Of a DNA stretch of 64,000 nt, positions 4,436 to 50,546 are shown piece by piece. Location: contig JAPLDF010000068.1 in NCBI GenBank assembly GCA_026391835.1, positions 124,001 through 188,000 of the forward strand. Direction: 5' to 3'. Each line of letters opens with the position of its first letter. The stretch's first letter is position 1. The stretch is from Bacteroidota bacterium (GTDB lineage: Bacteria > Bacteroidota > Bacteroidia > Bacteroidales > FEN-979). The notes under the pieces were generated by a model. It did no database searches, was not told the DNA's origin, and saw nothing but the letters and a program-made list of their open reading frames with translations. The translations under genes and the position numbers were made by a program.

Positions 4436-4463
4436 GATTTACGATTTACGAATTACGATTTAC
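4436..4463. repeat. GATTTAC heptamer array in the leader of the PLP lyase gene
   Basis: Four 7-bp units (GATTTAC, GATTTAC, GAATTAC, GATTTAC) lie between the start codon at 4422 and the putative -7 element at 4504, so they would be transcribed as part of the leader. The same unit recurs at 20744-20785 and inside the coding region at 26613-26650. Confidence 0.8.
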
Positions 4464-4503
4464 GATTTGGGGTATGGAGACTGGATTCAAGATAATAAGA
4501 ATA

Positions 4504-4511
4504 CAAAAATA
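4504..4511 (-). promoter_or_regulatory. Putative -7 element for the leftward PLP lyase gene
   Basis: CAAAAATA on the plus strand reads TATTTTTG leftward, matching TAnnTTTG. No clear -33 TTTG is seen at the right spacing, so this is weaker than the facing Lrp promoter. The leader would be about 75 nt. Confidence 0.35.
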
Positions 4512-4547
4512 ATATTTTGTCAGCTATTTTTGTAAAAAGCTAACATA

Positions 4548-4581
4548 TTGTAATTAATAAACCTGTATTTTTTTATCTTTG
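4548..4581 (+). promoter_or_regulatory. Promoter of the Lrp/AsnC gene
   Basis: TTG at 4548-4550 and TATCTTTG at 4574-4581 are 23 bp apart, a good Bacteroidota -33/-7 pair. The start codon follows at 4639. Confidence 0.6.
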
Positions 4582-4638
4582 TTATCGTTTAACCTCTTTT
4601 TCATATAATTTGACAATGTTTTTCCGTAAAATCGACCA

Positions 4639-5106
4639 ATGAGCTTTAAAGTTGATAGTTTGGACAAGCGGATCCTCTCCTTTCTCACAAGGGATGCGCG
4701 AATTCCGTTTCTTGAGATTGCCAGGAAATGCAATGTTTCGGGGGCTGCCATCCACCAGCGTGTAAACCAGATGATTGCAGGAAAAATCGTTTCCGGCTCG
4801 CATTTTAATGTCGATCCGAAGGGACTTGGTTATGGCACATGCGCATTTATCGGACTGGTAATCAACCTGGTATCGACCAGTACCCATGCAACGGTTTTTA
4901 AGAAGATCATGCAGATCCCCGAGATCGTGGAGTGCCATCATGTTACCGGGAAGTACTCCCTGTTTGTGAAGATCTATGCAAAAGACAACGAGCATCTCCG
5001 AAAACTGATTACCGACAAGATCCAGTCGATCCCTGAAGTAACTACCACTGAGACATTTATATCGCTGGAGGTGGGGTTTATGCGGCAACTTGAAGTTGGG
5101 ACCTAA
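4639..5106 (+). CDS. Lrp/AsnC family transcriptional regulator
   Basis: The 155-residue protein has the standard feast/famine regulator layout: an N-terminal winged helix-turn-helix (about residues 5-65, starting with the family sequence DSLDKRIL) and a C-terminal RAM/AsnC ligand-binding domain (about 70-145, with the H-VTGKYSLFVKIYAKD strand). Such proteins form octameric discs and respond to amino acids. It is divergent from a PLP enzyme of methionine/cysteine metabolism and lies close to the threonine genes, so these are the likely targets. The ligand is not predictable from sequence alone. The stop is only 12 bp from the end of the convergent ThrH gene. Confidence 0.92.
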   Translation: MSFKVDSLDKRILSFLTRDARIPFLEIARKCNVSGAAIHQRVNQMIAGKIVSGSHFNVDPKGLGYGTCAFIGLVINLVSTSTHATVFKKIMQIPEIVECHHVTGKYSLFVKIYAKDNEHLRKLITDKIQSIPEVTTTETFISLEVGFMRQLEVGT

Positions 5107-5117
5107 TTGGTCACTGG

Positions 5118-5720
5118 TCATTGAATATACCGGGCCAGGACCTTCTTCAGCTCTTCATACTCCGTCACCACCCGGAATTCAGGATAATCACTGATCACGT
5201 TCTGCGGCGGCCTGAACAGGATGCCGACGTCGGCCTGTTTGAGCATGCTGATATCGTTGTAGGAATCACCCATGGCGATCACCTGGTATTTCAGTCCCTG
5301 CAGGGCCTCCACCGTTTTCCGTTTCGGATCGGGCTGGCGCAGCGTGTAATCGATGATCCTGTTGGTATCGTCCATCACCAGAGTGTGGCAGAAGAGGGTG
5401 GGGCGGCCAAGCTGCACCATCAGCGGATCGGCAAACTGGATGAATGTATCGGAAACCACGATCAACTGGGTTCGTTCCTTCACCCATCCGATAAATTCAA
5501 TGGCCCCGGGGAGCGGCTGTATCCGGGCAATAACATCCTGGATGTCATGCAGTTTTAACCCATGCTGATCAAGGATTTTCATGCGGCTCCGCATCAGCAG
5601 GTTGTAATCGGGTTCATCGCGGGTGGTGCGGCGCAGTTCGCCGATGCCGGTTTTATCGGCGACGTTGATCCATACTTCAGGAACGAAAACACCTTCAAGG
5701 TCGGAACAGAGGATATACAT
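5118..5720 (-). CDS. thrH: ThrH-like phosphoserine phosphatase / phosphoserine:homoserine phosphotransferase
   Basis: This 200-residue HAD-superfamily protein matches ThrH, known from Pseudomonas to dephosphorylate phosphoserine and to transfer the phosphate to homoserine. Motif I is D7-L-E9 (ThrH has DLEG where SerB has DxDST). Motif II is S90-D91-T92. A conserved lysine is K135, and motif III is GDSYND with D152 and D156. It is the last gene of a leftward run behind threonine synthase with a 61-bp gap. That context favours the phosphotransferase role, supplying O-phosphohomoserine to ThrC, but plain phosphoserine phosphatase activity for serine synthesis is equally possible. Confidence 0.85.
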   Translation of the reverse strand: MYILCSDLEGVFVPEVWINVADKTGIGELRRTTRDEPDYNLLMRSRMKILDQHGLKLHDIQDVIARIQPLPGAIEFIGWVKERTQLIVVSDTFIQFADPLMVQLGRPTLFCHTLVMDDTNRIIDYTLRQPDPKRKTVEALQGLKYQVIAMGDSYNDISMLKQADVGILFRPPQNVISDYPEFRVVTEYEELKKVLARYIQ

Positions 5721-5750
5721 GATGGCTACAAATTAAAACCTTATAAATTC

Positions 5751-5788
5751 AAAAAGCAAAATGCAAAGTCAAAATGCAAAATTAAAAT
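5751..5788. repeat. AAAATGC-type short repeats between thrC and thrH
   Basis: The A-rich stretch contains repeats of the form AAAATGCAAA/AAAGTCAAAATG and covers the stop codon region of thrC. A cleaner copy of the same family precedes guaA at 32640-32680. Confidence 0.6.
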
Positions 5789-7152
5789 GTAGTTAACAGG
5801 AATTTTTTAAAATCAAGGTAATCGACCGGTAAGGAATTTATGAATTCCGGTTTTTCGTCAAGTCCTTCAAGGCTTGCCGGCAAGGGCGGATCAAGGCCGG
5901 TGAGCTGCCTGATCTCTTCAGGGAACTTTGCGGGGTGGGCCGTTTCGAGTGAAACACACAGTTGTTCCTGCCGGTCATCCATGGGATTTATTTTCAGGTA
6001 TTCCATGAGGCCGGCCCATCCGACTGCTCCATGCGGTTCAAGCAGAACATGTTGTTCAAGATAGGCTTTCCTGATGGTTTCCCGGGTGAGCAAATCGGAA
6101 ATACTCACCGAAAATATCTCCTTTCGCATCAATGCCATGTCTGCCGGCCGGTGGATGTTCCCTTTTTCATCCATCATCCCGCCATAAAGTGCGACCAGCC
6201 TTGCCAGGTTGCTTGGATGCCCGACATTCATGGCGCTGGAGATGCAGTTCCGCGATGGTTCTACCTTTTCATACTTCCCGGTTTCCAGGTAATTGGGAAA
6301 CTCATCATTTGCATTTGTCGCAATGATGAACTTTTTTACCGGCAGTCCCATCCTCATGGCAAGTATGCCGCCCATCATATCCCCGAAATTCCCGGAAGGG
6401 ACAGAGAATATGATCCTTTCGGGATGGTTTTCCATGGCCAGCCTTGAAAATGCGTAAAAGTAATAGACGATCTGCGGGATCAGCCTGCCGATGTTGATGG
6501 AGTTGGCCGACGACAGGCTGAGGTGCTCCAGCTCAGGATCAGAAAAAGCCTGTTTCACAAGCGCCTGGCAATCGTCAAATTTGGCATCAAGCGCAAGCAC
6601 ATGGACGTTCCTGCCAAGGGTGGTCATCTGCTTGCGCTGTCGGCCGGTCACTTCCAGCCTGGGATAGAGCACCACAACCTGGATGTTGTCCAGTCCAAAA
6701 AACGCATTGGCCACCGCGCTCCCGGTGTCGCCGGAGGTAGCCGTAAGGATCAGCAGCTTTTGCCCGTTTAGTTTCAGGTAATGCTGCATGAGCCGTCCCA
6801 TCATCCGTGCGGCGAAGTCCTTGAAAGAAGCTGTCGGCCCCTGGTCGAGGCGCATGACATACTTCCGGCCGCTGACTTTTTCAAGCGGAACAGGATAATC
6901 ATAGGCATCCCTGACGAGTTCACGCAGTTCACCTTCCCCGATTTGCCCTACCAGGTACCTCCGTATAACATCAAAAGCAATCTCATGATACGGCAGTCCC
7001 GAATAGCCGGCGATATCGTCCTGCGATATCTGCGGGACCGATTGTGGCAGGTAAAGCCCCCTGTCCGGAGCCTGGCCCCTGAGCAGCGCCTGGCTGAAGG
7101 GGACTGCTTCAGCCTGCAGGTTTGTGGAGTAGAAAAGCAATGGTTGTTCCAT
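5782..7152 (-). CDS. thrC: Threonine synthase
   Basis: The 456-residue PLP enzyme converts O-phosphohomoserine to threonine. The PLP lysine is K111 in GPTASFKDF, the family signature. The TATSGDTGSAVANAFFG phosphate-binding region and the SVPSGNFGDMMGG motif are also present. The N-terminal domain (about 1-90) is the usual threonine synthase cap. The gene begins 1 bp after the stop of the upstream trans-sulfuration gene, so the two are surely co-transcribed, and thrH follows. Homoserine kinase is not in the window. Confidence 0.95.
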   Translation of the reverse strand: MEQPLLFYSTNLQAEAVPFSQALLRGQAPDRGLYLPQSVPQISQDDIAGYSGLPYHEIAFDVIRRYLVGQIGEGELRELVRDAYDYPVPLEKVSGRKYVMRLDQGPTASFKDFAARMMGRLMQHYLKLNGQKLLILTATSGDTGSAVANAFFGLDNIQVVVLYPRLEVTGRQRKQMTTLGRNVHVLALDAKFDDCQALVKQAFSDPELEHLSLSSANSINIGRLIPQIVYYFYAFSRLAMENHPERIIFSVPSGNFGDMMGGILAMRMGLPVKKFIIATNANDEFPNYLETGKYEKVEPSRNCISSAMNVGHPSNLARLVALYGGMMDEKGNIHRPADMALMRKEIFSVSISDLLTRETIRKAYLEQHVLLEPHGAVGWAGLMEYLKINPMDDRQEQLCVSLETAHPAKFPEEIRQLTGLDPPLPASLEGLDEKPEFINSLPVDYLDFKKFLLTTF

Positions 7153-7153
7153 A

Positions 7154-8389: not shown

Positions 8390-8412
8390 AACGACCTCCT
8401 TTGTTTTTAAAT

Positions 8413-8431
8413 AGTTAAACTTTATTTAACT
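8413..8431. promoter_or_regulatory. Candidate operator: inverted repeat upstream of the sulfhydrylase-thrC-thrH operon
   Basis: AGTTAAA (8413-8419) and TTTAACT (8425-8431) form a perfect 7-bp inverted repeat with a 5-nt spacer. It lies between the -7 element (8446-8453) and the start codon at 8389, a position suited to a repressor. The binding protein is unknown; the nearby Lrp protein is only a guess. Confidence 0.3.
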
Positions 8432-8445
8432 GCAGAAAATTAGAA

Positions 8446-8453
8446 CAAACATA
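8446..8453 (-). promoter_or_regulatory. Putative -7 element of the sulfhydrylase-thrC-thrH operon
   Basis: CAAACATA on the plus strand reads TATGTTTG leftward (TAnnTTTG). The transcript would start near 8440, about 50 nt before the start codon. No good -33 element is seen. Confidence 0.45.
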
Positions 8454-8499
8454 CATAAAATTATCCTAAAAGAAATTTCGCCGGATGCGACCGCAAACC

Positions 8500-9975
8500 T
8501 CAGGCCTGCCTGTTTCTTAAAGTGGCTGAAGAGGCGCCTCCAGCCGAATACTCCGGAGTGGTGACCTTCACTTTCCTGCCATCCAGGACTGCAAGCGCCT
8601 GGTCGATATCTTTGATAATGTCATCGGGGTGTTCCACGCCGATGCAGAGCCTGATTAGGTTTGCAGGGATGCAGGCCAGTTTTCGCCCCTCCTCCCCCTG
8701 CTGGGCGTGGGTTGAAATTGCAGGGATGGTTGCCACCGATTTGATCCTTCCCAGGTCGGTGGCACGCCAGATGCGGGTAAATGCATTAAATACATCACGG
8801 GTTTGTTTTGCATCCCCTTTTATGTTGAATGACATCAAATGCCCGTACCGGTTCACCTTTGTGCCGTACTGGTCGTCGTATTCCGAATCAACCAGGTACA
8901 TGTAATCCGACGCCAGGCTGTGCAGGGCGTCTGTTTCCAGTCCAAGGTAGTCAACCTTTTCCACATGCCGGTGCTGCTCAAGGTACTGCGCAACCTTCAT
9001 GGTGCTGCGGCTCATGTGGTCCATCCGCATGCGGATCGTGCGGATGTCGTTCAGGGCGAGCACAGCATTCATGGGGGAAATATTTGGACCATTGTCGCGG
9101 TTGGGCAGCAATTTGAGCCAGGTGGCGAAATCGGCCTTCATCTCCGGGTTGTCAATGTTCGAGACCAGGTTTTTCCGGGAAATCACCGCCCCTGAAATTC
9201 CAAATCCGCTGGTGGCAAGTGATTTGGTGACCGACTGCACCACGATGTCGGCCCCGTGTTCAATTGGCCGCAGCAACGCCGGTGTGGCCACCGTTGAATC
9301 AATGATCAGCGGGAGCCCGTATTTATGGGCCAGGGCGGCAACTTTTTCAAGATCAAAAAATGCCTGGCAGGGGTTGCTCGGCATCTCTCCATAAAGGAAG
9401 CGTGTATTTTCGTCGATCAGTGATTCCCATTCGGCAAGATCGGTCGAATGACAAACTTTTCGCCATTCAACATCCCTGTCATGGTGCTTTCGCATGGAAA
9501 ACTGCTGGTAGGTTCCGCCGTAAACCTGCGCCGTGGCCACAAAATTCATCGGGGCCTTCGGGTTTCGCGGATCAACCACCAGGAAAGGATCCACCGCGCT
9601 CTGGATGGCTGCCATCCCGGATGAAGTGGCAATACACGATGTCTCCACATCCGAACCGTAGCCGTCCAGCAGGGCAAGCACACCTTCGAGATAATACATG
9701 GTGGGGTTGGCAATGCGGGAGTAACACCACGTTGGTATCCTGTACCCCAGGGCAGCCTCCATTTCATCGGCATCACGATATGCCTGCGATGTTGACATAT
9801 ACACCGGTTCAACAATTGATCCCTGGTTGAAATCAAGCGCCTCCTGCATGGAGTAAATGCCGTGGGTGGCGATGGTGTCGAACCGGCATTGTTTCATCTG
9901 CTCCCGGTAATCCCGGTGCCATTGCGCCGCACGTTTCGCTGCTTCCAGATAATGATCCATTCCGGTTGTTTCCAT
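8500..9975 (-). CDS. Long PLP-dependent trans-sulfuration family enzyme
   Basis: The 491-residue protein is about 90 residues longer than typical family members because of an N-terminal extension of some 45 residues and insertions around residues 130-180. Core residues are present: YSR (Y85, R87), SSGMAAI, the stacking tyrosine in QVYGG (Y152), D226 in LIIDST and the Schiff-base lysine K251 in SVTKS. Substrate cannot be read from sequence; gamma-lyase or acyl-homoserine sulfhydrylase activity are the family options. It has its own promoter and a 110-bp gap separates it from the sulfhydrylase gene that follows on the same strand. Confidence 0.8.
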   Translation of the reverse strand: METTGMDHYLEAAKRAAQWHRDYREQMKQCRFDTIATHGIYSMQEALDFNQGSIVEPVYMSTSQAYRDADEMEAALGYRIPTWCYSRIANPTMYYLEGVLALLDGYGSDVETSCIATSSGMAAIQSAVDPFLVVDPRNPKAPMNFVATAQVYGGTYQQFSMRKHHDRDVEWRKVCHSTDLAEWESLIDENTRFLYGEMPSNPCQAFFDLEKVAALAHKYGLPLIIDSTVATPALLRPIEHGADIVVQSVTKSLATSGFGISGAVISRKNLVSNIDNPEMKADFATWLKLLPNRDNGPNISPMNAVLALNDIRTIRMRMDHMSRSTMKVAQYLEQHRHVEKVDYLGLETDALHSLASDYMYLVDSEYDDQYGTKVNRYGHLMSFNIKGDAKQTRDVFNAFTRIWRATDLGRIKSVATIPAISTHAQQGEEGRKLACIPANLIRLCIGVEHPDDIIKDIDQALAVLDGRKVKVTTPEYSAGGASSATLRNRQA

Positions 9976-10029
9976 AAAGAGGCGATTTTGGATTTTGGTT
10001 TTAATAAGTCGATGAGGCTAACATGCAAT

Positions 10030-11617: not shown

Positions 11618-11647
11618 CAGAAACTGGGTTCCTTACGATTCCGTCTT

Positions 11648-13897: not shown

Positions 13898-13986
13898 CTA
13901 AGCGTATCTATGGGAATGGGCCAGTGACCGGTGACATGTCACCTCATGCCTGATCGTAATTTTTAATTTTTAATTTTTAAGCTGTT

Positions 13987-19332: not shown

Positions 19333-19381
19333 ACAAGTGACAAGTGACAAGTGACAAGTGACAAGTGACAAATGACAAGTG
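19333..19381. repeat. ACAAGTG heptamer array, seven units
   Basis: Seven contiguous 7-bp units (ACAAGTG with one ACAAATG variant) follow directly after the stop codon of the GT2 gene. Related arrays lie at 27447-27516 and, in the opposite orientation, 44575-44609. Confidence 0.95.
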
Positions 19382-19409
19382 AAGCGTGATTAAAATGGCA
19401 TTCTTTTTT

Positions 19410-19417
19410 TATCTTTG
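19410..19417 (+). promoter_or_regulatory. -7 element of the DUF5606 gene
   Basis: TATCTTTG matches TAnnTTTG and lies 17 bp before the ATG at 19435, leaving a leader of roughly 12 nt. No clear -33 element is present; the upstream DNA is the ACAAGTG array. Confidence 0.5.
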
Positions 19418-19434
19418 CAAAAAACTATCAGACT

Positions 19435-20733: not shown

Positions 20734-20743
20734 GACTATATAC

Positions 20744-20785
20744 GATTTACGATTTACGATTTACGATTTTTGATTTACGATTTTT
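20744..20785. repeat. GATTTAC heptamer array between pyrK and pyrD
   Basis: Six 7-bp units in the order GATTTAC x3, GATTTTT, GATTTAC, GATTTTT fill most of the gap between two subunits of one enzyme. It is the same family as 4436-4463. Confidence 0.9.
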
Positions 20786-24400: not shown

Positions 24401-24455
24401 AGGAAGGTTAGAGGAAGGTTAGAGGAAGGTCAGAGGAAGGTTAGAGGAAGGTCAG
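24401..24455. repeat. 11-bp tandem array, five units
   Basis: Five contiguous units AGGAAGGTTAG or AGGAAGGTCAG follow 30 bp after the stop codon of the Asp-box gene. The unit length differs from the 7- and 8-bp arrays elsewhere in the window. Confidence 0.95.
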
Positions 24456-24477
24456 CGGATTTGGATAATAACCTGAG

Positions 24478-25834: not shown

Positions 25835-25862
25835 GATTTCGGATTTCGGATTTCGGAATTTG
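25835..25862. repeat. GATTTCG heptamer array, left flank of the four-helix gene
   Basis: Three GATTTCG units and a GAATTTG variant lie 26 bp before the four-helix gene. An inverted version of the same sequence lies directly after the gene at 26256-26289. Confidence 0.85.
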
Positions 25863-26255: not shown

Positions 26256-26289
26256 AAATTCGAAATCTCAAATCCGAAATCCGAATTCC
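26256..26289. repeat. Inverted GATTTCG repeats, right flank of the four-helix gene
   Basis: The sequence AAATTCGAAATCTCAAATCC and the following GAAATCCGAATTCCC are the reverse complement of GATTTCG-type units. Together with 25835-25862 they form an inverted pair around one gene. The next gene starts 2 bp later. Confidence 0.8.
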
Positions 26290-26290: not shown

Positions 26291-27454
26291 ATGCCCCTGG
26301 CCATCGTCTCTGTTACCAACGACCTTACCACCGATCAACGGGTTGACCGCACCTGTTGTACCCTGGTAAAATCGGGTTATGAGGTATTGCTGGTCGGGCG
26401 CAGGATGCGGAACAGCAAAACGCTGGCACCACGCTCCTACCGGATGCACCGGATGAGGCTCCTTTTTGACAAAGGCCCTCTTTTTTACGCAGAATACAAC
26501 ATCGCCCTGTTTTTCTTCCTCCTCATGCACCGGCATGATCTTGTTGTGTCAAACGATCTTGATACCCTGCCTGCAAACTACTTTGCCGAACAGGTAAAAC
26601 ATATTTTTTCATCAAATCGTAAATATAAAATCCCAAATCGTAAATCCCCAATATTCCACCTCCACGACTGCCATGAGTACTTTCGCGGTGTTCCCGAACT
26701 CGTAGGCCGAAAAACCGTGACCAGGGTATGGAAATGGATCGAGGACCGGATCTTTCCAAAACTGGAACATGTGATTGCCGTGAACCAGTCGGTAGCTGAC
26801 CTATACACCGCCGAGTACGGCAACCATATCGAAGTGATCCGGAACGTGCCGTTCAGGAAACCACCCACCGGTGCGGGCGGGAGGGGTTCGCCGAACATCC
26901 CGGGGGGCCGGAAAATCATCCTGTACCAGGGCGCCGTAAATATCGACCGCGGACTTGAAGAGGCGATCCTGTCCATGAAATACCTGGAAACCGACGCCAT
27001 TCTGGTCATCGCAGGAATCGGGGATATTTGGGAATCGCTGAAACAGTTCACCGTGGAGCATGGGCTTTCCGAAAAAGTAAGGTTCCTGGGACAGGTTCCG
27101 TTCCAGGAGTTGCATGCCATTACGCTGACGGCGGACCTGGGACTCTCCATCGAAAAAGATGTCAGCATCAATTACCATTACTGCCTCCCGAACAAATTCC
27201 TCGACTACATCCAGGCAAACATCCCGGTTTTGGTTTCCCCCTTCCCCGAGATGAAGTCGATCGTGGATCAATACAACATTGGCGAATTCATCGATAACCA
27301 CCACCCGGAGGCACTTGCCACCCGGATGGATTCGATGCTGAACAATCCCGGGAAAATGGCCATGTATAGGGAGAATCTCCTCAGGGCAGCGGGTGAACTT
27401 TGCTGGGAACGGGAAGAGGTAAAGTTGGTGGAAATACTGCGGAATGACAAGTGA
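26291..27454 (+). CDS. Glycosyltransferase family 4-like protein with repeat-derived insertion
   Basis: The 387-residue protein has the GT-B plan: an N-terminal acceptor domain (1-200) with SNDLDTLPA and HDCHEYFRGVPEL, and a C-terminal nucleotide-sugar domain (210-387) with YQGAVNIDRGLEEAI, AGIGD and the NKFLDYIQANIPVLVSPFPEM segment. It most likely adds a sugar to a lipid-linked or protein-linked glycan. Residues about 108-120 come from a GATTTAC-type repeat read in reverse (26613-26650) and interrupt a strand just before the HDCHEYF motif. The last codons and the stop are supplied by the first ACAAGTG units. Confidence 0.85.
   Translation: MPLAIVSVTNDLTTDQRVDRTCCTLVKSGYEVLLVGRRMRNSKTLAPRSYRMHRMRLLFDKGPLFYAEYNIALFFFLLMHRHDLVVSNDLDTLPANYFAEQVKHIFSSNRKYKIPNRKSPIFHLHDCHEYFRGVPELVGRKTVTRVWKWIEDRIFPKLEHVIAVNQSVADLYTAEYGNHIEVIRNVPFRKPPTGAGGRGSPNIPGGRKIILYQGAVNIDRGLEEAILSMKYLETDAILVIAGIGDIWESLKQFTVEHGLSEKVRFLGQVPFQELHAITLTADLGLSIEKDVSINYHYCLPNKFLDYIQANIPVLVSPFPEMKSIVDQYNIGEFIDNHHPEALATRMDSMLNNPGKMAMYRENLLRAAGELCWEREEVKLVEILRNDK
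26613..26650 (+). repeat. GATTTAC-family repeat inside the GT4 coding sequence
   Basis: The reverse complement contains GATTTACGATTT and ATTTACGATTTG, the same units as the intergenic arrays at 4436 and 20744. It reads in frame as NRKYKIPNRKSP, a basic stretch not expected in this part of the fold. Confidence 0.8.
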
Positions 27455-27516
27455 CAAGTGACAAATGACAAGTGACAAATGACAAGTGACAAGTGACAAG
27501 TGACAAATGACAAGTG
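27447..27516. repeat. ACAAGTG heptamer array, ten units, joining two glycosyltransferase genes
   Basis: Ten contiguous units (ACAAGTG with three ACAAATG variants) form the entire junction. The stop TGA of the upstream gene is at 27452-27454 and the ATG of the downstream gene is at 27507-27509, both inside the array. Confidence 0.95.
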
Positions 27517-28640
27517 GCAATCATCTTCATATAATCTCCTTCGACATTCCTTTTCCGGCCAATTATGGCGGGGTGATCGATGTTTTTTATAAAATCAGGG
27601 CCCTGCACCGTGCAGGTGTTGAAATTCACCTGCATTGCTTTGAACACAGGCGTGAACATTCCGGGGAATTAAACCGATACTGTGCTGAAGTGCTCTATTA
27701 TCCGCGAAACGCAGGTTTAATGGCTAACATCGGGATAAGGCCCTATATTGTGGCCAGCAGGATGTCGCAGGAGCTGGTGAACAACCTCCTGAAGGATGAC
27801 TACCCCATTCTTTTTGAGGGGCTGCACACCTGTGGTATCATGTCGGACTCCCGGCTGAAGGGCCGGTTTATGATTTACCGCGAAAGCAATATCGAACATC
27901 ACTACTATTACCACCTGTTTAAAGCCGAAAAACACCCCGGGAAAAAACTCTATTTCCTGGCAGAAAGCGTGAAACTGAAGTTCTTTCAGAAAATTCTCCG
28001 TCATGCTTCGGTCATGCTGGCCGTTTCGGGCGACGACACAAAGTACCTTGCATCCGCCTTTCCCGCCCAAAAAGTGGTTTACCTGCCAAGTTTTCACCGC
28101 GATGATGAGGTCCATATCCTGCCAGGCAAAGGCAGCTATGCACTTTACCAGGGCAAACTTTCCGTTCCCGAAAACATTGTGGCTGTTGAGTATCTTATCA
28201 ACAGGGTATGGGAGGATTCTTTTCCTGAACTGCTTGTTGCAGGCCTTGATCCGCCCGGGCGGCTCACAAGGCTGGCAGCGCAGCACCCCAACATCCGGAT
28301 CATCGCGAACCCCACGGACGATGAAATGTTCCGCCTGATCCGCGAAGCACAGGTCAACCTCATGGTCACTTTTCAGCCTACCGGGCTAAAACTTAAACTG
28401 CTCAATGCGCTTTTCAACGGGCGGTTTTGCCTGGTAAACCCCGATATGGTTGCAGGCACATCCCTCGACGAACTTTGCCACATTGCCGGCACATCCCGGG
28501 AATTAAAAGATAAGCTCCTGCACCTCTTCTCACTTGACTTCACGCCAGGCCTTATCGCCCACAGGCAATCCATTCTTCAGAAGCACCATTCAAACCAAAA
28601 TAATTGCAATTTGTTCCTGGAGATATTAAATTTGCGTTGA
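27507..28640 (+). CDS. Glycosyltransferase (GT-B fold, family 4-like)
   Basis: The 377-residue protein begins HIISFDIPFPANYGGVIDVFYKIRALHRAG, the typical start of a GT-B acceptor domain in which a Gly-Gly loop follows the first strand. The C-terminal domain includes YQGKLSVPENIVAVEYL and the acidic/loop region TFQPTGLKLKLLNALFNGRFCLVN, where the family binds the nucleotide sugar. The only in-frame ATG before the first strand lies within an ACAAGTG array (27507), so repeat length could affect its translation. It is probably paired with the GT4 gene upstream in glycan assembly. Confidence 0.82.
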   Translation: MTSGNHLHIISFDIPFPANYGGVIDVFYKIRALHRAGVEIHLHCFEHRREHSGELNRYCAEVLYYPRNAGLMANIGIRPYIVASRMSQELVNNLLKDDYPILFEGLHTCGIMSDSRLKGRFMIYRESNIEHHYYYHLFKAEKHPGKKLYFLAESVKLKFFQKILRHASVMLAVSGDDTKYLASAFPAQKVVYLPSFHRDDEVHILPGKGSYALYQGKLSVPENIVAVEYLINRVWEDSFPELLVAGLDPPGRLTRLAAQHPNIRIIANPTDDEMFRLIREAQVNLMVTFQPTGLKLKLLNALFNGRFCLVNPDMVAGTSLDELCHIAGTSRELKDKLLHLFSLDFTPGLIAHRQSILQKHHSNQNNCNLFLEILNLR

Positions 28641-32639: not shown

Positions 32640-32680
32640 TTAAAATGCAAAATGCAAAATGGAAAATGCAAAGTGCAATG
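32640..32680. repeat. AAAATGC heptamer array upstream of guaA
   Basis: Units AAAATGC, AAAATGC, AAAATGG, AAAATGC, AAAGTGC and a partial AATG follow in register at 7-bp spacing. The same family, less regular, is at 5751-5788. Confidence 0.85.
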
Positions 32681-38724: not shown

Positions 38725-38821
38725 AAACTACATTATTAAGCTTTATTACGGTCAACCGGGGCCGGCTCAACCCTGAACATGTATTAACTGCCAGGCAGAC
38801 AAGTCGCCAAATCCGTAATTT

Positions 38822-39586
38822 TTAACTTTTAATTTTTAATTTTGTTTGCTCATCCAATATAATCCCCTCCTTATAAACCGGCACCACATGCGTCGAATCA
38901 ATATGGAAAGAGTATGGGATCACATCATCCAGCCCAAGCTTTTTGAGGCGATGGCGGTGGGCGGCTTTTTCAATATATCCCGGGATATCGGGCCGTGCCA
39001 GGCTCCACAGGTCAGTCGCGGCGGCCGCCGAATCGCAATGGGTTGCAAAGTGTTTTGATGCAAGCAACTGCTCAGCCAGTGCTCCTGCAAAGATGGTATC
39101 TTCAAGGCAAAATTTATTTTTCCAGCCTGAACAGAGGATGACCACATTTTTATCCTGGTCGATCAGCCAGCCTGTGAGGGCGGCGAGGTTGATAAAGGCC
39201 CCCATGGCGATCTTTTCTGCTTTCTTCGCAATGTCAAGTGCGCGGGTGCCATTGGTCGTGCAATAAACCAGGGTTTTCCCTTCAATGGCATCCCGGGTGA
39301 AGTTAAATGCAGAATTTCCGAAATCGGCAAAGTCGAGTTTTTTGCCATCCTGCTCCGATGCCACAAGAAACCCCTTCTCTTTCATGGCCTTCGCCTCCTC
39401 CAGCGTAGCAACGGGAATGATGCTGCTTATACCGTTTTCAAAGGCGGCACAAATGGAAGTCGTGGCACGGAGGATATCGACAAGCACCACGATGTAGCTT
39501 TCTTTTGTCTGGATCTCAGAGAAAAGTTTCGGAGAGAAGCATACTTCAACGGATCGGGGATTGACTGGCTGCGTTTCCATTTCCAT
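38822..39586 (-). CDS. ComB-like 2-phosphosulfolactate phosphatase
   Basis: The 254-residue protein matches the ComB family, which in methanogens removes phosphate from 2-phosphosulfolactate during coenzyme M synthesis. Family motifs are VLVDILRATTSICAAFENG, LVYCTTNGTRAL and the CSGWKNKFCLEDTIFAGAL segment. Bacteroidota do not make coenzyme M, and the other genes (comA, comC) are not in the window, so the substrate is uncertain. The ATG at 39586 overlaps the LRR gene's TGA by one base, so translation is probably coupled. Confidence 0.85.
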   Translation of the reverse strand: MEMETQPVNPRSVEVCFSPKLFSEIQTKESYIVVLVDILRATTSICAAFENGISSIIPVATLEEAKAMKEKGFLVASEQDGKKLDFADFGNSAFNFTRDAIEGKTLVYCTTNGTRALDIAKKAEKIAMGAFINLAALTGWLIDQDKNVVILCSGWKNKFCLEDTIFAGALAEQLLASKHFATHCDSAAAATDLWSLARPDIPGYIEKAAHRHRLKKLGLDDVIPYSFHIDSTHVVPVYKEGIILDEQTKLKIKS

Positions 39587-42180: not shown

Positions 42181-42186
42181 AGCAAT

Positions 42187-43020: not shown

Positions 43021-43083
43021 AGAACAGAATAAAAATTAAAAATTAAAAATCACCTTTCGTAATTCGTAATTTTTAATTCGTAA
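43021..43083. repeat. A+T-rich TTTTTAA/AATTCGT short repeats
   Basis: The gap holds AAAATTAAAAATTAAAAAT and then AATTCGTAATTTTTAATTCG, both with 7- to 8-bp periodicity. Similar TTTTTAA repeats occur at 13958-13980, 38817-38842 and 46000-46025, always directly before or after genes. Confidence 0.6.
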
Positions 43084-43662
43084 TTATTTGGAGGTTTCTT
43101 TAACGCGGATATCGCCCAGCATCACATCCCAGAACCCGATGAGGCGGCCACCGATCTGCGTCTCCTTGCGTTTGACATATACCGTGATGTCCTTCTTGGT
43201 TGTATCTTCATACACCAGCCCCTTTTCCTTGTCGTATGCCTGGAACCGCTGGTATACCGTGATCACGCCAACGTAGGTGCCATCGGGCTGCCTTACGAGG
43301 TCGCTCACATACTGGATCTTGTACCAGTCGATGGTCACCCTGTCGTAGTTGAGTTGCATCAGGCGGTCGAAATATTCCCGCACCTTGTAGTAGTTAACAT
43401 CCTGCTTGCCGAGGGATGAAACCCCGATCTCACTGTTTTCCATAAACAGTTCAGCGGCACGTTCAATCACGCGCTGGGCGTCAGACCACGGGGTCTTTTT
43501 GTCACCAATGATGCTGATGTATTTGCTGAGGTCGCGAACCTTTTCGAGGGCAAGGCTGTCAATGGCCTGTTTGCGCTGTGGCGAAAGGTTATCCTGTGCG
43601 GCAACCCGGTTCGACACCGCGATCAGGGAGGCCAATATGATGAATGAAAGAAGTTTTCTCAT
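43084..43662 (-). CDS. Exported protein of unknown function, possibly NTF2-like (192 aa)
   Basis: A signal peptide (1-22, ending VAAQ) precedes a 170-residue domain with a helix (ERAAELFMENSEIGVSS), a YYKVREYFDRLMQLNY segment and four predicted strands (VTIDWYKIQYVSDLV, TYVGVITVYQRFQAY, KDITVYVKRKE, GFWDVMLGDIRV). This order is that of NTF2/SnoaL-like domains. The family is not identified. The gene ends 63 bp before the 277-residue protein gene and starts 5 bp after the lipoprotein gene. Confidence 0.7.
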   Translation of the reverse strand: MRKLLSFIILASLIAVSNRVAAQDNLSPQRKQAIDSLALEKVRDLSKYISIIGDKKTPWSDAQRVIERAAELFMENSEIGVSSLGKQDVNYYKVREYFDRLMQLNYDRVTIDWYKIQYVSDLVRQPDGTYVGVITVYQRFQAYDKEKGLVYEDTTKKDITVYVKRKETQIGGRLIGFWDVMLGDIRVKETSK

Positions 43663-43667
43663 GGTTG

Positions 43668-44483
43668 TTACTTTTTAATTAAATCGAGTTCTTTGATTTT
43701 TCCACCTGCATCGGTCATGATGGCATCAATGTCGTTCTTGCTTGCCTTGGTATCCCTGAGGAAGTTAAGGTAGCGTTTGATGGTTGTGGGTTTGTCGTAA
43801 TCGACCGTAGAACCTTCGCGGCTGATGATGATCAGGACGGGTGCATCGTCGGAAGTGAAGAACTGCAGGGTTTTCTGAATGGTGTTGTCGGCCTGTGTCA
43901 GGTTGCCTGTTTTTGCTGCATTTGCGATCGTTGTGAAGGCATTCTCCAACTGTGTTTTCACCGGCAGGTTGCTTCCCCCGCCTGAACGCATCTCCGCGAT
44001 CTTTTTCTCGAGCCTTGCGGTAAGTTCATCAATCTCCGTATCATTCAGGTTTTGACGTTTGATGGCATTGAGCTCCTTTTCCAGTTCATCTGCCGATTTA
44101 TTGTCCTTGTTCAGCAGGAGGTCATACAGGGCCGCCCGCGCCACATCGACTTTCTGGGCTTTTGCCTGTGTTTGTTCCGCGAGCAGGGTTTTCAGTTTTT
44201 GCTGGGCCTGGATGATCATATCGTTGAGGATAGGATCGTTCAGGTTCTTATCCATGATGGCACCAACGATCCGTTTCTGCTCTTCATACGAAAGCGTGGA
44301 AGTGCCGCTGATGATGGGCTTCAGCTGGTTTTTGGCCTGCTCGATCTGCGCCTTGCGCTCTTTCTTCGATAACTTGCCTGTCGATTTGCAGCTATCGGCT
44401 CCCGCAACCATGAGCATCATCAGCAGGATGAACATCATGTGCTGCCAGCGGACTGACTTGATTTTATTTGCTATTTCTGACAT
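43668..44483 (-). CDS. Putative lipoprotein with coiled coil (271 aa)
   Basis: The N-terminus has a hydrophobic segment (15-29) followed by GADSC, a possible lipobox with C32, so the protein may be anchored to a membrane by lipid. Residues 37-175 are charged and helical with coiled-coil character. The C-terminal part (about 205-271) includes an APVLIIISREG strand and YDKPTTIKRYLNFLRD, which I do not recognise. It is the first gene of the leftward cluster (lipoprotein, 192 aa, 277 aa, LRR, ComB). The hydrophobic stretch begins unusually late for a signal peptide, so a later ATG is possible. Confidence 0.65.
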   Translation of the reverse strand: MSEIANKIKSVRWQHMMFILLMMLMVAGADSCKSTGKLSKKERKAQIEQAKNQLKPIISGTSTLSYEEQKRIVGAIMDKNLNDPILNDMIIQAQQKLKTLLAEQTQAKAQKVDVARAALYDLLLNKDNKSADELEKELNAIKRQNLNDTEIDELTARLEKKIAEMRSGGGSNLPVKTQLENAFTTIANAAKTGNLTQADNTIQKTLQFFTSDDAPVLIIISREGSTVDYDKPTTIKRYLNFLRDTKASKNDIDAIMTDAGGKIKELDLIKK

Positions 44484-44608
44484 ATTTGTTGGTTTTGGTA
44501 AGTTGGTAAAATGGTGAACGGGTAGACGGGTAAACGGGTAAACGGGTAAACGGGTAAACCTGAAAATGCCCTGTTACTTGTCACTTGTCACTTGTCACTT
44601 GTCATTTG
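44484..44608. other. Gap built of two repeat arrays between gcvT and the lipoprotein gene
   Basis: About two thirds of the 125 bp are repeats: an 8-bp GGTAAACG array (44513-44560) and a reversed ACAAGTG array (44575-44609). No promoter is evident for the lipoprotein gene. Confidence 0.7.
44513..44560. repeat. GGTAAACG octamer array, six units
   Basis: Units GGTGAACG, GGTAGACG, GGTAAACG x3 and GGTAAACC are contiguous. The same unit forms the inverted pair at 50398-50546. Confidence 0.95.
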
Positions 44609-44609
44609 T
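44575..44609. repeat. Reversed ACAAGTG array, five units
   Basis: Units TACTTGT, CACTTGT x3 and CATTTGT lead directly into the stop codon of gcvT (44609-44611), so the gcvT stop TGA is the edge of the array. It mirrors the arrays after the stops at 19326 and 27454. Confidence 0.92.
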
Positions 44610-45697
44610 CATGCTTTATAAAACGGAAACTTAACCACCTTTGCCCTGAGGATTTTTTCCCTGATTTTAATATGAATTTCACTTCCTTCTTTCGACAATG
44701 CGGTTGGTACATAACCCATGCCGATGGGTATTTTTACAGATGGTCCCATGGTACCAGACGTAACTTCGCCGATTTTATTGCCCGTGGCATCCACAATTTC
44801 ATATTCATGGCGGGGTATACCCTTGTCAACCATCTCAAAGCCAACCAGTTTCCGGGTTGTTCCTTCCAGCTTCTGTTTCAGCAGGGCAGCTTTATTGACA
44901 AACTCTTTGTAATCGGTGAATTTCGTGATCCAGCCCAGCCCGGCTTCGATGGGCGAGGTGGTATCGTTGATATCGTTTCCATAAAGACAGTAACCCATTT
45001 CGAGCCGAAGGGTATCACGCGCGGCCAGGCCGATCGGTTTGATACCGAATTCAGCTCCTGCTTTGAATACAGCCTCCCAGATTTTCGGAGCGTCTTCATT
45101 GGCCATGTATATCTCACAACCGCCTGAACCGGTATACCCGGTGGTGGCAAAAATAACATCCGGAACACCGGCAAACGTCAGTTTCTTAAAGGTGTAATAT
45201 TCCATGCCGGTGACCTTGGTGTCGGTCAGTTTCTGCATTGCCATGAGCGCCAGGGGGCCCTGGATGGCCAGCTGTGCGATTTCATCAGAAGCATTGTACA
45301 ACTCTGCTCCCATTTTATTGTGTTTATTGCACCAGTCCCAGTCCTTGTCGATGTTTGAGGCATTCACCACGAGCAGGTAGGTGAGATCATCCACCTTGTA
45401 AACGAGCAGGTCATCCACAATGCCGCCGGTCTCATTCGGGAAACAGGAGTACTGCACTTTACCGGGAACCAGTTTTGAGGCATCGTTTGAAGTGACCCAT
45501 TGAATAAAATCAAGCGCTTTCGGCCCTTTCACCCAAAATTCACCCATGTGTGAAACATCAAAAACACCAAGTGCCTTGCGCACGGTTTCATGTTCGGCGT
45601 TAACACCTTCATACTGAACCGGCATGTTGTAGCCGGCAAACGGGACCATCTTGGCGCCCATTGCTTCGTGGAACTTTGTGAATGCTGTATTTTTCAT
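44609..45697 (-). CDS. gcvT: Aminomethyltransferase, T protein of the glycine cleavage system
   Basis: The 362-residue protein transfers the one-carbon unit from aminomethyl-lipoyl GcvH to tetrahydrofolate and releases ammonia. Family features are [11 protein letters not shown] near residue 45, SNDASKL, the conserved [11 protein letters not shown] folate-site region and [20 protein letters not shown]. The length is normal. It follows a leader of about 105 nt. The stop codon is the first part of an ACAAATG repeat. It is not linked to gcvH or gcvP, which are respectively absent and 42 kb away. Confidence 0.96.
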
Positions 45698-46030
45698 GAG
45701 CTATAATGTTGGTTAAATCAGTTCTCATTTCTCCTGGCAGCTGCATTACTTTCCTGCAGGCAGTAACTTTTTACAAGGGATGTGGTGCAGTATTTGCTTT
45801 AAACGGTGCAAAAGTAGGAAAAATTGCATGTTAAATTGCTGAATGTTCATATTTAACAGCAATTGTTCATATGTTCAGGCAAATTATTTTTAAATTTGAC
45901 ACGTGTTATTTATCCTTAAATTCCTGTCCCACTTTATGATATTTTTATGGATAAGTGACATTTTCACAACCGTCATGCCGGTATGCCAGGATACCGCCTG
46001 AAATTTTTAATTTCTAATTTTTAATTCATT
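45698..46030. other. 333-bp divergent region between gcvT and miaA
   Basis: On the gcvT side there is a -7 element (CAAAAGTA at 45809-45816, TACTTTTG leftward) and a 105-nt leader. Farther on, TGTTCA occurs three times (45844, 45864, 45872), twice followed by TAT, a possible operator. The miaA side ends with TTTTTAA-type repeats. I find no RNA gene and no known riboswitch. Confidence 0.55.
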
Positions 46031-46969: not shown

Positions 46970-46976
46970 CAGCCTC

Positions 46977-48281: not shown

Positions 48282-48401
48282 GGTGTCGGGAATTATTTTT
48301 ATACGGCCGAATTAACAGCAAATATACGCGATAATTCCATTTCTGTTTTCAGTTTACGGCATTTTTATGCCAGGTGCTCCTGTATTAAAACGTTACTTCG
48401 A

Positions 48402-48431
48402 TTGGCATCACCCGGGATTTTAGTATCTTTG
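48402..48431 (+). promoter_or_regulatory. Promoter of lpdA
   Basis: TTG at 48402-48404 and TATCTTTG at 48424-48431 are separated by 19 bp, an optimal -33/-7 pair. The leader is about 18 nt. Confidence 0.65.
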
Positions 48432-48454
48432 CCGATTCCAAAAAAACGAAATTC

Positions 48455-49843
48455 ATGAACTACGATATCATTGTCATTGGCAGCGGTCCGGGTGGATATG
48501 TTGCTGCCATCCGCGCTGCCCAGCTGGGATTCAGGGTGGCCGTTGTCGAACGGGCTGAACTTGGCGGGATCTGCCTCAACTGGGGGTGTATCCCCACCAA
48601 GGCCCTGCTGAAAAGCGCCAGCGTGTTCCAATATCTTAAGCATGCCGCCGATTACGGCATCACAGCCGGGGAATCCACCCCCGATTTTCCGGCCATTATC
48701 AAACGCAGCCGCGATGTAGCCGACCAGATGAGCAAGGGAATACAATTCCTGCTCAAGAAAAATAAGGTGGAACATATCCGGGGATTCGGGAAGGTAAAAC
48801 CGGGAAAGATCGTGGAGGTGACCGATGAGGCCGGCATAAAGACAGACTACTCCGCAAGTCATATTATCCTCGCAACCGGCACCCGCTCCCGTGAATTGCC
48901 AAACCTGAAACAGGATGGCAAAAAGATCATCGGGTACCGCGAAGCCATGACGCTACCCGTGCAACCCAAATCGATGGTGGTTGTTGGTTCCGGCGCCATC
49001 GGATCTGAATTTGCCTATTTCTACCAGTCGCTCGGTACCAGTGTCACGCTCATTGAAGTGCTCCCGAATATTGTCCCCATCGAGGATGAAGAAGTTTCAA
49101 AAGCGCTCGAACGCTTCTTCAAGAAGTCGGGCATGAAAGTGCTAGCCGGGGTCTCTGTAGAATCTGTTGATACTTCGGGCGAGGGCTGCCTTGTGACCGT
49201 CACCGCTAAAAAAGGCACGGAAATCATTGTCTGTGACATCGTTCTTTCGGCAGTTGGTGTTGCCACGAACCTTGAAGGACTTGGCCTCGAAGAGACCGGC
49301 ATTGCTACCGAACGCGGCAAAGTAACCGTTGACGATTATTACAAAACCAGTGTCGACGGCTATTATGCCATTGGTGATATCGTGAAAGGGCCGGCACTCG
49401 CGCATGTTGCGTCGCACGAAGGAATCATCTGCGTCGAGAAGATCGCCGGCAAACATGTTGAACCACTCGATTATGGAAACATCCCCGGATGTACGTATAC
49501 CCACCCCGAAATTGCCTCTGTCGGCATGACCGAAAAAGCTGCCCGGGAAGCGGGCTATGAAATCCTGGTCGGAAAATTCCCGTTCACCGCCTCCGGAAAA
49601 GCGACAGCCTCGGGTGCACGGGATGGTTTTATCAAGGTGATCTTTGACGCCAGGTACGGCGAATGGCTCGGCGCCCATATGATCGGCGAAAATGTCACGG
49701 AACTGATCGCCGAGGTTGTGGTTGCCCGCAAACTCGAAACTACCGGCAAAGAGATCATTGAAGCGGTTCACCCGCATCCGACCATGAGCGAAGCAGTAAT
49801 GGAAGCTGTGGCGGTGGCATATGGCGAGTGTGTTCATTTATAA
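48455..49843 (+). CDS. lpdA: Dihydrolipoyl dehydrogenase
   Basis: The 462-residue flavoenzyme reoxidises dihydrolipoyl groups of the glycine cleavage system and 2-oxo acid dehydrogenases. It has the FAD-binding GSGPGGYVAA motif (9-18), the redox-active pair C40 and C45 in GICLNWGCIPTK, the NAD-binding GSGAIGSEFA motif and the C-terminal HPHPTMSEA with the catalytic histidine. It is a likely L protein for GcvP and GcvT of this window. No 2-oxo acid dehydrogenase genes are adjacent. rfbC starts 8 bp downstream. Confidence 0.95.
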   Translation: MNYDIIVIGSGPGGYVAAIRAAQLGFRVAVVERAELGGICLNWGCIPTKALLKSASVFQYLKHAADYGITAGESTPDFPAIIKRSRDVADQMSKGIQFLLKKNKVEHIRGFGKVKPGKIVEVTDEAGIKTDYSASHIILATGTRSRELPNLKQDGKKIIGYREAMTLPVQPKSMVVVGSGAIGSEFAYFYQSLGTSVTLIEVLPNIVPIEDEEVSKALERFFKKSGMKVLAGVSVESVDTSGEGCLVTVTAKKGTEIIVCDIVLSAVGVATNLEGLGLEETGIATERGKVTVDDYYKTSVDGYYAIGDIVKGPALAHVASHEGIICVEKIAGKHVEPLDYGNIPGCTYTHPEIASVGMTEKAAREAGYEILVGKFPFTASGKATASGARDGFIKVIFDARYGEWLGAHMIGENVTELIAEVVVARKLETTGKEIIEAVHPHPTMSEAVMEAVAVAYGECVHL

Positions 49844-49851
49844 ATAAATTC

Positions 49852-50394
49852 ATGAAAATCATTAAAACTCCGTTAGAAGGCTTACTGATCATCAAACCGG
49901 ATGTGTTTGAAGATGACCGTGGCTATTTTTTCGAATCATACAGCCATGAAAAATTCCTGAAAGAAGGGCTGGACATCAAGTTCCTGCAGGACAACGAATC
50001 AAAATCGAAGAAAGGGGTGCTCAGGGGGCTTCACTACCAGGCTCCGCCGTTTGCACAGGGAAAGCTGGTGCGTGTGATGCGCGGATCGGTACTCGATGTG
50101 GCTGTGGATATCCGGAAAGATTCCCCGACATACGGAAAATGGGAATCGATCGTTCTTTCTGGACAAAATAAATGGATGTACTGGATCCCGGCCGGATTTG
50201 CCCATGGATTCGCAACGCTCGAAGACGATACGATTTTCTTCTATAAATGTACGAACGTCTATAGCAAAGTCTCCGAAGGAAGCATCCGCTGGAACGATCC
50301 CGATCTCAATATTGACTGGGGAATCGTCGCCCCGGTGGTTTCGGATAAGGATAAGGTGGCACCTTTGTTTATGGAGGTGGTGAGTCCGTTTTGA
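49852..50394 (+). CDS. rfbC: dTDP-4-dehydrorhamnose 3,5-epimerase
   Basis: The 180-residue cupin enzyme makes dTDP-4-dehydro-L-rhamnose, a precursor for surface polysaccharides. The catalytic histidine is H61 in RGLHYQ and the tyrosine is Y131; K71 and the PAGFAHGF region complete the active site. The frame extends into the end of lpdA, but the ATG at 49852 gives the standard MKIIKTPLEGLLIIKPDVFEDDRG start. The usual partners rfbA, rfbB and rfbD are not in the window, which is unusual since they are commonly clustered. Confidence 0.94.
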   Translation: MKIIKTPLEGLLIIKPDVFEDDRGYFFESYSHEKFLKEGLDIKFLQDNESKSKKGVLRGLHYQAPPFAQGKLVRVMRGSVLDVAVDIRKDSPTYGKWESIVLSGQNKWMYWIPAGFAHGFATLEDDTIFFYKCTNVYSKVSEGSIRWNDPDLNIDWGIVAPVVSDKDKVAPLFMEVVSPF

Positions 50395-50397
50395 ATT

Positions 50398-50546
50398 GGT
50401 AAACGGGTAAACGGGTAAACGAGTAAACCGGTAAATGATGGACATTATACGATTTTTTGTTCACCAGTCTACCTGCTCACCTGTTTACCCGTTTACCTGC
50501 TCACCCGTTCACCCGTTTACCTGCTCACTCGTTTACCCGTTTACCC
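50398..50546. repeat. Octamer arrays in inverted orientation
   Basis: Five GGTAAACG-type units (50398-50437) are followed after 21 bp by eleven 8-bp units of the reverse type, GTTTACCC/GCTCACCT (50459-50546). The two arrays can pair into a long hairpin. They occupy nearly the entire 170-bp gap between rfbC and the lytic transglycosylase gene. Confidence 0.93.

Follow-up and report, generated by a model that had tools for sequence, protein, structure and literature searches.

Tandem arrays of 7- and 8-bp units in the gene spacers of a Bacteroidales family tend to face outward from gene ends, with end extension as a possible origin

In this study we analyzed a 64-kb stretch of a Bacteroidota genome (G000:C12:124001-188000; hereafter the window), whose gene spacers hold many tandem arrays with units of 7 or 8 bp. 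The units tend to be oriented outward from the adjacent gene ends, neighboring arrays converge far more often than they diverge, and in one unit family the sequence is more alike at unlinked loci of one species than between species. Our tentative reading, to which we give somewhat less than an even chance, is that these intergenic arrays are kept uniform within a species in trans and are laid outward from the edges of the spacers so that they meet head-to-head, by a mechanism that extends DNA ends. The cause of the preference for 7 bp in bacterial simple repeats has been an open question since at least 2007, and two papers that discuss it invoke polymerase slippage.

The first sample of this genome (G000; 5.35 Mb in 86 contigs) consisted of the window and 20 other stretches, 464 kb in all, in which genes were called as greedy open reading frames (ORFs). 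In guaA the genome is nearest, among named records, to Draconibacterium orientale (88%) and two assemblies titled uncultured Bacteroidales (88% and 85%), which puts the host in or near the Bacteroidales. Period 7 gave 43 perfect runs, 40 of them outside called genes, where dinucleotide shuffles expect 0.3; periods 8 and 9 gave 11 and 3, and periods 4, 5 and 6 none. Over the whole genome the pattern GATTTACx3 had 40 matches, which overlap within one array as do all such pattern counts given here, and its reversed control had none. The same peak was obtained in a family sample (31 genomes from a single Bacteroidales family, 1,976,016 bases in total), in which arrays were detected with mismatches allowed. 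Periods 4 to 10 yielded 10, 2, 5, 160, 85, 7 and 0 arrays and periods 11 to 15 yielded 5, 2, 2, 14 and 3, compared with 9, 5, 1, 0 and 1 at periods 4 to 8 after shuffling. The arrays of G000 and its family thus have the properties of bacterial heptamer-type long simple sequence repeats (SSRs), 7-nt arrays far above chance and mainly outside genes. An earlier note on this DNA had proposed a fixed 7-bp period beyond chance, and the peak at 7 and 8 bp upholds this both genome-wide and family-wide; confinement to the 64-kb segment, which would have spoken against the proposal, was not borne out, the peak being present in the other G000 stretches and in other assemblies of the family.

A second sample, made up of 80 named loci that total 1.42 Mb and almost all have titles pointing to Bacteroidota, again had 7 as the commonest period between 4 and 14 (18 arrays, versus 6, 2, 3 and 3 at periods 4, 5, 6 and 8). 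In contrast, 400 kb from five genomes of other families of the order contained just three 7/8-bp arrays, so the peak is family-wide but not order-wide and the trait is patchy. No array of any period was seen in 80 kb of G043, and the sampled stretches of G006, G007, G016 and G023 were without spacer arrays, though G007 has 144 GATTTACx3 matches genome-wide. Convergent heptamer arrays also occur in strain-titled records of Rufibacter and Adhaeribacter. Because the family assemblies repeat the peak and these strain records contain such arrays, an assembly artefact is an unlikely source.

Within the family sample, arrays were found in 129 of the 955 spacers between co-directional genes, in 16 of the 170 divergent spacers and in 10 of the 177 convergent ones. 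Only 40 of 245 arrays lay inside called ORFs, some of these ORFs being short or having the array at their end, and 14 of 245 were not assigned. Co-directional spacers with arrays had a median length of 108 bp, compared with 51.5 bp for those without. The relatives compared are draft assemblies of tens to hundreds of contigs each. Among 874 pairs of orthologous co-directional spacers within the genus, many of which derive from one and the same spacer, arrays were present in both members in 98 pairs, in one in 202 and in neither in 574. When both had an array, the unit was the same in 10 of 98, compared with a null of 410 of 11349 (3.6%). The clearest case is the spacer upstream of pyrD, which carries arrays of several families in at least 11 of 19 genomes of the genus.

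For arrays lying within 40 nt of a gene end, whether a stop or a start, the unit was read outward from the nearer end and its polarity scored by whether G exceeded C or the reverse. Among 135 such arrays, 69 were G-richer and 16 C-richer when read outward, and 50 were neutral. The excess was seen at stop ends (41 versus 10) and start ends (28 versus 6), in convergent spacers (8 versus 0) and in divergent ones (4 versus 0). When the arrays were collapsed to distinct spacers by their flanking ortholog groups, 36 were outward and 11 inward with one tie (p 3.5e-4). After removal of units with a G-tract the count was still 50 versus 14, so outward placement is independent of G-tracts. Two families that are neutral in G and C were also consistent: with a margin of 15 nt, ACGATTT was found in one orientation 18 times and in the other once, and AAAAATT 8 times and once; with a margin of 1 nt the counts were 20 versus 4 and 9 versus 1. 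Most of the larger unit families within one genome have a common polarity, the AAATGGTG family excepted.

Loci fetched by pattern gave a similar picture. In G000, where they partly overlap the sample used for family polarity, 13 ACGATTT loci were outward, 4 inward and 3 in ORFs, and in G001 the numbers were 9, 4 and 1; outward and inward loci numbered 11 and 0 at starts and 11 and 8 at stops. The 24 GTGACNN rows of G014, which include several pieces of one array, comprised 14 outward, 3 inward and 7 in ORFs. In co-directional spacers with arrays the GC skew was +0.30 next to the stop and fell to -0.24 next to the start, while in array-free spacers it was nearly flat except in the final fifth, just before the start (-0.23 and -0.13). 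The observation made earlier that each family recurs in both orientations is correct in that both occur; the orientation is not free, however, and tends to follow the side of the spacer.

Pairs of neighboring arrays no more than 150 bp apart provide a comparison that needs no gene calls, a G-rich array on the left with a C-rich one on the right being scored as convergent. Of 90 pairs, 25 were convergent and 1 divergent (p 8e-7), 24 had the same orientation and 40 included a neutral unit; the ratio became 33 to 1 once two neutral families were signed by convention. The 25 convergent pairs represent 18 distinct ortholog spacers in 12 species and the divergent pair one spacer. At stricter thresholds the ratios were 20 to 0 and 11 to 0, and at the loosest one 34 to 6. 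The named loci contributed 7 convergent pairs and no divergent one, or 6 from 4 loci after dropping L087, which is the same place as one sampled in G026. The head-to-head form thus occurs outside the family, since L137, L153, L155 and L159, from Rufibacter, Adhaeribacter and a Bacteroidetes assembly, all have convergent heptamer arrays; Rufibacter glacialis and Adhaeribacter soli are each represented by one such pair. Among the convergent octamer pairs, those of the CGCAGAGA type were observed in G003 (L162 12730-12793) and G014 (L201 18887-18950). CTCTGCG octamers resembling this type are common in many environmental genomes.

Convergent arrays might be expected if the spacers encoded intercistronic RNA hairpins, whether terminators, mRNA-stabilizing structures or structures like bacterial interspersed mosaic elements (BIMEs), with arms kept complementary. 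Some pairs are inverted arrays of one family that are predicted to fold strongly, as at 50398-50546 of the window (z -5.9) and in G014 L203 (z -7.8), and L137 of Rufibacter is likewise an inverted pair of one family. However, the two arms had the same unit or one with a single mismatch in only 5 of 25 convergent pairs, where random arrays of the species give ∼11%, and differed in unit length in 8 of 25. Since the arms mostly differ in unit or length, arm-to-arm pairing is not the main cause. The share of spacers with a folding z below -2 was also alike, 13 of 81 with arrays and 18 of 120 without (a sample of the 210 array-free spacers), and arrays near gene ends keep their polarity paired or not, the polarity count having needed no partner. 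Selection for hairpins was consequently rejected as the main cause, and we regard this explanation as decidedly improbable. With respect to the repetitive extragenic palindromic (REP) elements and BIMEs, the arrays are direct repeats, some of them paired as inverted arms; a search for REP hairpins was not part of the comparison. Two further candidates were considered. A supply of stop codons by the units was rejected, as ACGATTT after stops is stop-free in all frames and GGTAAACG before starts is stop-free in the sense direction. A Chi-like role, with G-rich asymmetric 7-8-mers facing a break, is weighed against by the many families within one genome.

Different species have amplified different families. 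GATTTACx3 is present in 20 of 61 genomes, with 297 matches in G001, 144 in G007, 123 in G013, 40 in G000 and 0 in G014 and G017, while GTGACNNx3, searched in 11 genomes, has 894 matches in G014, 349 in G017, 91 in G000 and 2 in G002. Reversed-pattern controls gave 0 everywhere except in G009 (2) and G017 (10). The two variable bases of GTGACNN differ as well: among the matches listed, G000 has mainly AA and GA, G017 AC and GC, and G014 AG, GG and GC. We compared 33 GTGACNN arrays from 7 species and found a similarity of 0.557 between unlinked loci within a species (99 pairs), in contrast to 0.104 between species (429 pairs) and 0.094 between species at loci with a common neighbor gene (36 pairs); 2000 permutations of the labels gave p 0.0005. 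In G014 the order of units along the array is not shared between loci in the same manner. Over its 20 variable arrays the mean longest common subsequence (LCS) was 2.48, compared with 2.61 for shuffles, which speaks against block copying between loci there; the longest match was equalled by 11 of 200 shuffles in G013 (3 arrays) and by 142 in G000 (5 arrays).

These results bear on the explanation by ordinary slippage, in which the polymerase sets the preferred size, arrays are inherited vertically and those in coding sequence are purged by selection. In its favor, the survey by Mrazek (2007, as cited in PMC4679880) gave 7 bp as the commonest period of long SSRs in most genomes. Pairs of GTGACNN units at a distance of two are identical more often than expected (86 of 197 versus 71.6, p 0.005), and when whole units are compared across all arrays an excess appears at lag 1 (342 of 756 versus 288.6 expected), so that slippage does contribute. 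On the other hand, the likeness of adjacent GTGACNN units does not exceed chance (77 of 230 versus 83.3 expected), and slippage would not lead one to expect a single unit at many unlinked loci, turnover between species at orthologous loci or convergent polarity. Slippage acts, yet it does not by itself explain the matching of unlinked arrays. A polarity that is not tied to one unit, change that is concerted in trans and the lack of a common unit order together argue that more than slippage is at work, and as the full explanation we consider it improbable. Polarity, concerted change and unit order are three measurable signatures that can be applied to any genome.

The earlier note had imagined a common mechanism for making and spreading the arrays. 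The concerted change of units and the polarity bias do indicate a cause acting in trans, and one such cause would be a DNA- or RNA-binding factor for which the arrays are selected binding sites, the unit drifting with its specificity and the polarity reflecting its seating. This would account for GTGACNN units that are concerted and species-specific at unlinked loci, for the conservation of array presence at orthologous spacers described above, and for the order of units in G014, which is like that of independent sites with tolerated variants. It explains concerted change as well as end extension does, but it explains the common polarity of many families less easily, as one genome has many unit families of two lengths in equivalent positions, most of the larger ones with a common polarity. 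One spacer also holds different families in different species, and the array-flanking genes of the window that have a Pfam match are mostly ordinary metabolic ones, which also counts against such a factor. We consider a binding factor rather unlikely, if still worth weighing; if it is the true cause, a genome-wide regulator has been missed.

Another candidate for the spread of the arrays is a reverse transcriptase resembling telomerase, a retron or a maturase, or else a Y1 transposase of the REP-associated (RAYT) type. Convergent G-rich strands resemble fused telomere repeats, the families reach many loci, and G000 has 2 RVT_1 and 10 Y1_Tnp matches. RVT_1 was detected in 25 of 37 genomes, but not in the array-bearing G011, G012, G014 and G020, whose drafts are 95-98% complete, even though G014 has the 894 GTGACNN matches given above; the reverse transcriptase expected of telomerase-like or retroelement arrays is thus undetected in these four. 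Y1_Tnp was detected in 29 of 37, but not, among others, in the array-bearing G005, G008, G011 and G012 or in G016, which has no array in its 10 kb. In five genomes of the genus, including G008 and G012, the Y1 count was 0, compared with the 10 of G000. Ku, the mark of end-joining scars, was found in 0 of 37 genomes while the positive control was detected in Bacillus subtilis. Absence from a draft genome is not proof for any of the three. Spread by either kind of enzyme seems very improbable to us, and the suggestion of a maturase or integrase put forward earlier is not supported, RVT_1 and Y1_Tnp being undetected in several array-bearing genomes and integrase families other than these having been outside the search.

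In the end-extension mechanism that we tentatively prefer, breaks or frayed ends would arise inside spacers, where insertions are tolerated. The 3′ ends would then be extended by one or two units at once, with the G-richer strand as the growing strand and with templates taken from a common pool, either other arrays or a short nucleic acid. Once the two ends had been rejoined, the left array would be G-rich and the right one its C-rich mirror, and ordinary slippage would then tune the copy number. The role of broken ends as substrate is inferred, as are the template pool and its nature. End extension from a common pool would be the simplest single cause because it brings together outward growth, convergence, the sharing of units without the sharing of blocks and survival in spacers only. 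If it is correct, a DNA-writing process has been missed. A broader version would be that bacteria of several phyla possess an activity that writes G-rich 7-8-nt units outward on 3′ DNA ends from a shared template pool and without a canonical reverse transcriptase or Ku, resembling telomere addition at internal intergenic breaks and leaving head-to-head arrays as its footprint; this we regard as speculative and unlikely.

Several observations weigh against end extension. The polarity has exceptions in 16 of 85 signed arrays. Among the loci fetched by pattern from whole genomes, inward ones make up 4 of the 17 for ACGATTT in G000 and 4 of the 13 for it in G001, every one of these at a stop, and 3 of 17 for GTGACNN in G014, and the AAATGGTG family is mixed (3 versus 3 at margin 1). 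It holds to ∼60 nt from the gene end and is gone beyond, and an avoidance of G just upstream of starts, as in array-free spacers, may explain part of the signal on the start side. Neighbors of the same orientation are as frequent as convergent ones (24 versus 25), and divergent pairs rise to 6 at the loosest threshold. Concerted change was measured in one unit family, GTGACNN, and the excesses of like units at lags 1 and 2 point to slippage. Since Ku was undetected, simple end joining is less obvious, and no enzyme or template behind the arrays was identified in this analysis.

The commonest heptamers of G000 are AAATCGT (equivalent to GATTTAC), AAGTGAC (equivalent to ACAAGTG) and AAAAATT; among its octamers AAACGGGT (equivalent to GGTAAACG) is the most frequent. 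The earlier statement that the families share their length and not their sequence holds in part. Distinct units fit a shared theme more often than letter-shuffled units do (0.36 versus 0.14 for heptamers, 0.32 versus 0.05 for octamers), a fit that is descriptive because the theme was written down after the units had been seen. Single arrays also pass in register from one family to another (L049 5637-5691, L047 6307-6375), and in L036 (1260-1372) neighboring stretches shift between 8 and 7 bp. A consistent succession of families along the G-rich strand was sought by eye and not found. The likeness to the short tandemly repeated repetitive (STRR) sequences of heterocystous cyanobacteria noted previously stands as a resemblance only: these are reportedly tandem heptanucleotides between genes, described by Mazel in 1990, and their unit sequences and host phylum are expected to differ from those here.

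In the window, at least ten gaps had been said to hold such arrays; by gene calls there are 15, including three that are weak or overlapping (at 5745, 9984 and 38816), and a run of Tandem Repeats Finder recovered all the units named beforehand (ACAAGTG, GATTTAC, GATTTCG, AAAATGC, TTTTTAA and GGTAAACG). Three gaps contain head-to-head pairs. In the first, the left arm at 43030..43050 (+), with the unit TAAAAAT, precedes the start of gene 42187-43020(-) by 9 nt and faces a TTCGTAA array at 43056..43085 (-), which lies at the stop of gene 43084-43662(-) and whose outward unit is TTACGAA. The octamer GGTAAACG at 44505..44559 (+), upstream of the start of gene 43668-44483(-), faces a TGTCACT array at 44572..44612 (-) that abuts the gcvT stop (-) and reads outward as GTGACAA, that is, ACAAGTG reversed. 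In the third pair both arms belong to one family, with GGTAAACG at 50398..50435 (+), 3 nt past the stop at 50394(+), as the left arm and, as the right arm, CACCCGTTTACC at 50459..50546 (-), which reads outward as GGTAAACG and lies 18 nt before the start at 50565(+).

Several of the remaining arrays lie close to starts. Upstream of minus-strand genes are GATTTAC at 4436..4468 (+), outward in orientation and 13 nt from the start of gene 3232-4422(-); a short GATTTTG array at 9984..10002 (+), 8 nt from that of gene 8500-9975(-); GATTTCG at 25835..25857 (+), 8 nt from the murB start (-); and AAAATGC at 32642..32678 (+), 14 nt from the guaA start (-). AAAAATT is the outward unit both of TAATTTT (TTTTTAA) at 13957..13980 (+), 6 nt upstream of the adenylosuccinate lyase gene at 13987(+), and of AATTTTT (TTTTTAA) at 46002..46026 (-), 4 nt upstream of the IPP transferase gene at 46031(+). 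At stops are the ACAAGTG (GTGACAA) array at 19333..19382 (+), 6 nt past the stop at 19326(+), the ACGATTT (GATTTAC) array at 20741..20783 (+), 7 nt past the stop in the spacer that separates the DHODB-type gene from pyrD, and a TAATTTT (TTTTTAA) array at 38816..38843 (+) that overlaps the stop of gene 38822-39589(-). Several congeners have other GTGACNN units or an octamer in the first of these spacers, and various arrays in the second. In the gap that leads from the start of gene 5118-5720(-) to the stop of the threonine synthase gene 5782-7152(-) there is a degenerate AAATGCA-type array at 5745..5789 (+). AAATCCG at 26256..26289 (+) separates the 23S IVP gene (+) from a glycosyltransferase gene (+), and TGACAAG (ACAAGTG) at 27445..27520 (+) fills its whole spacer, running over the stop of 26291-27454 as well as the called start of 27507.

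Other features of the window were also recorded. Upstream of the DUF5606/DUF6852 gene (19383-19434 region), many of the compared relatives have a TTCTTTTTTTATCTTTGC-like block with the array on its far side; the block resembles a Bacteroidota promoter. The interval from murB to the glycosyltransferase gene contains a lone gene for a 23S rRNA-intervening-sequence protein (PF05635; 25879-26250) with arrays on both sides. A 9-bp tandem repeat at 21800-21885, intragenic and of a period divisible by 3, lies within the 5′ end of gene 21774-24371, whose product is a sortilin-like protein with a weak match to a secretion tail, and a similar GCATTG repeat follows pyrD in the relative G015. An 11-bp AGGAAGGTTAG array at 24401-24459 is in a convergent spacer, and all 5 of the 11-bp arrays of the family sample are in convergent or divergent spacers. 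Two imperfect repeat groups of 10 and 22 bp, TCGCAGAT and ATCTGCGA, face each other at the window's right end (63789-63908). Rfam had no match at the gathering score within the window.

The abundance of heptamers in bacteria is already known. They are the commonest class among the long SSRs of prokaryotes, as they are here, and a polymerase contact has been proposed as the reason for 7 nt (Mrazek 2007, as cited in PMC4679880 and PMC4692102). Rehm et al. (2015; PMC4692102) describe GGGAATC heptamers of Xanthomonas with outward G-rich placement from the near ORF and with convergent pairs. Like our arrays, these are mainly intergenic and dispersed, with four units most often, compared with our median of 4.4, and they occur mostly between the same gene pairs while length and sequence vary between species. 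The GGGGA(C/T)T heptamers of Nostoc, described in the same paper, are also mainly intergenic and have an identical preferred placement relative to ORFs. That placement is found here too, with 69 outward arrays against 16 and 25 convergent pairs against 1, plus the 24 pairs of the same orientation. In contrast to the single G-quadruplex unit reported there for Xanthomonas, our arrays have dozens of units of 7 and 8 bp, of which few suit a G-quadruplex, a G-tract (GGG or CCC) being present in just 30 of 191 arrays, and concerted species-specific change was measured here; the Nostoc unit is likewise of the G-quadruplex type, with few paired repeats and 68% intergenic. MacGregor (2015; PMC4679880) reports TAACTGA heptamers in Beggiatoaceae, cyanobacteria and some Bacteroidetes. 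In a Beggiatoaceae genome (n=170), 147 are directed toward a start and 12 toward a stop, with 5 others and 6 at contig ends, whereas 24 sets sampled in Microcystis have no orientation bias. They resemble our arrays in being mostly intergenic, near start codons and oriented, with related units mixed in an array and strain-specific histories, but they consist of one unit, proposed as the binding site of a post-transcriptional regulator, and none of the 61 distinct heptamer units in our sample is TAACTGA. Prokaryote satellites derived from heptamers form species-specific families of short units throughout a genome, for which a transposition mechanism was suggested as possible (PMC6749651); the available part of that paper centers on longer arrays and mentions neither polarity nor 7/8-bp spacer pairs. 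Beyond PMC4692102 and PMC4679880, we found no other report of polarity or of concerted heptamers in the portions of the literature searched. As far as that literature extends, what is new here is the outward rule for many mostly non-quadruplex units of two lengths, together with a unit sequence that changes in concert within a genome.

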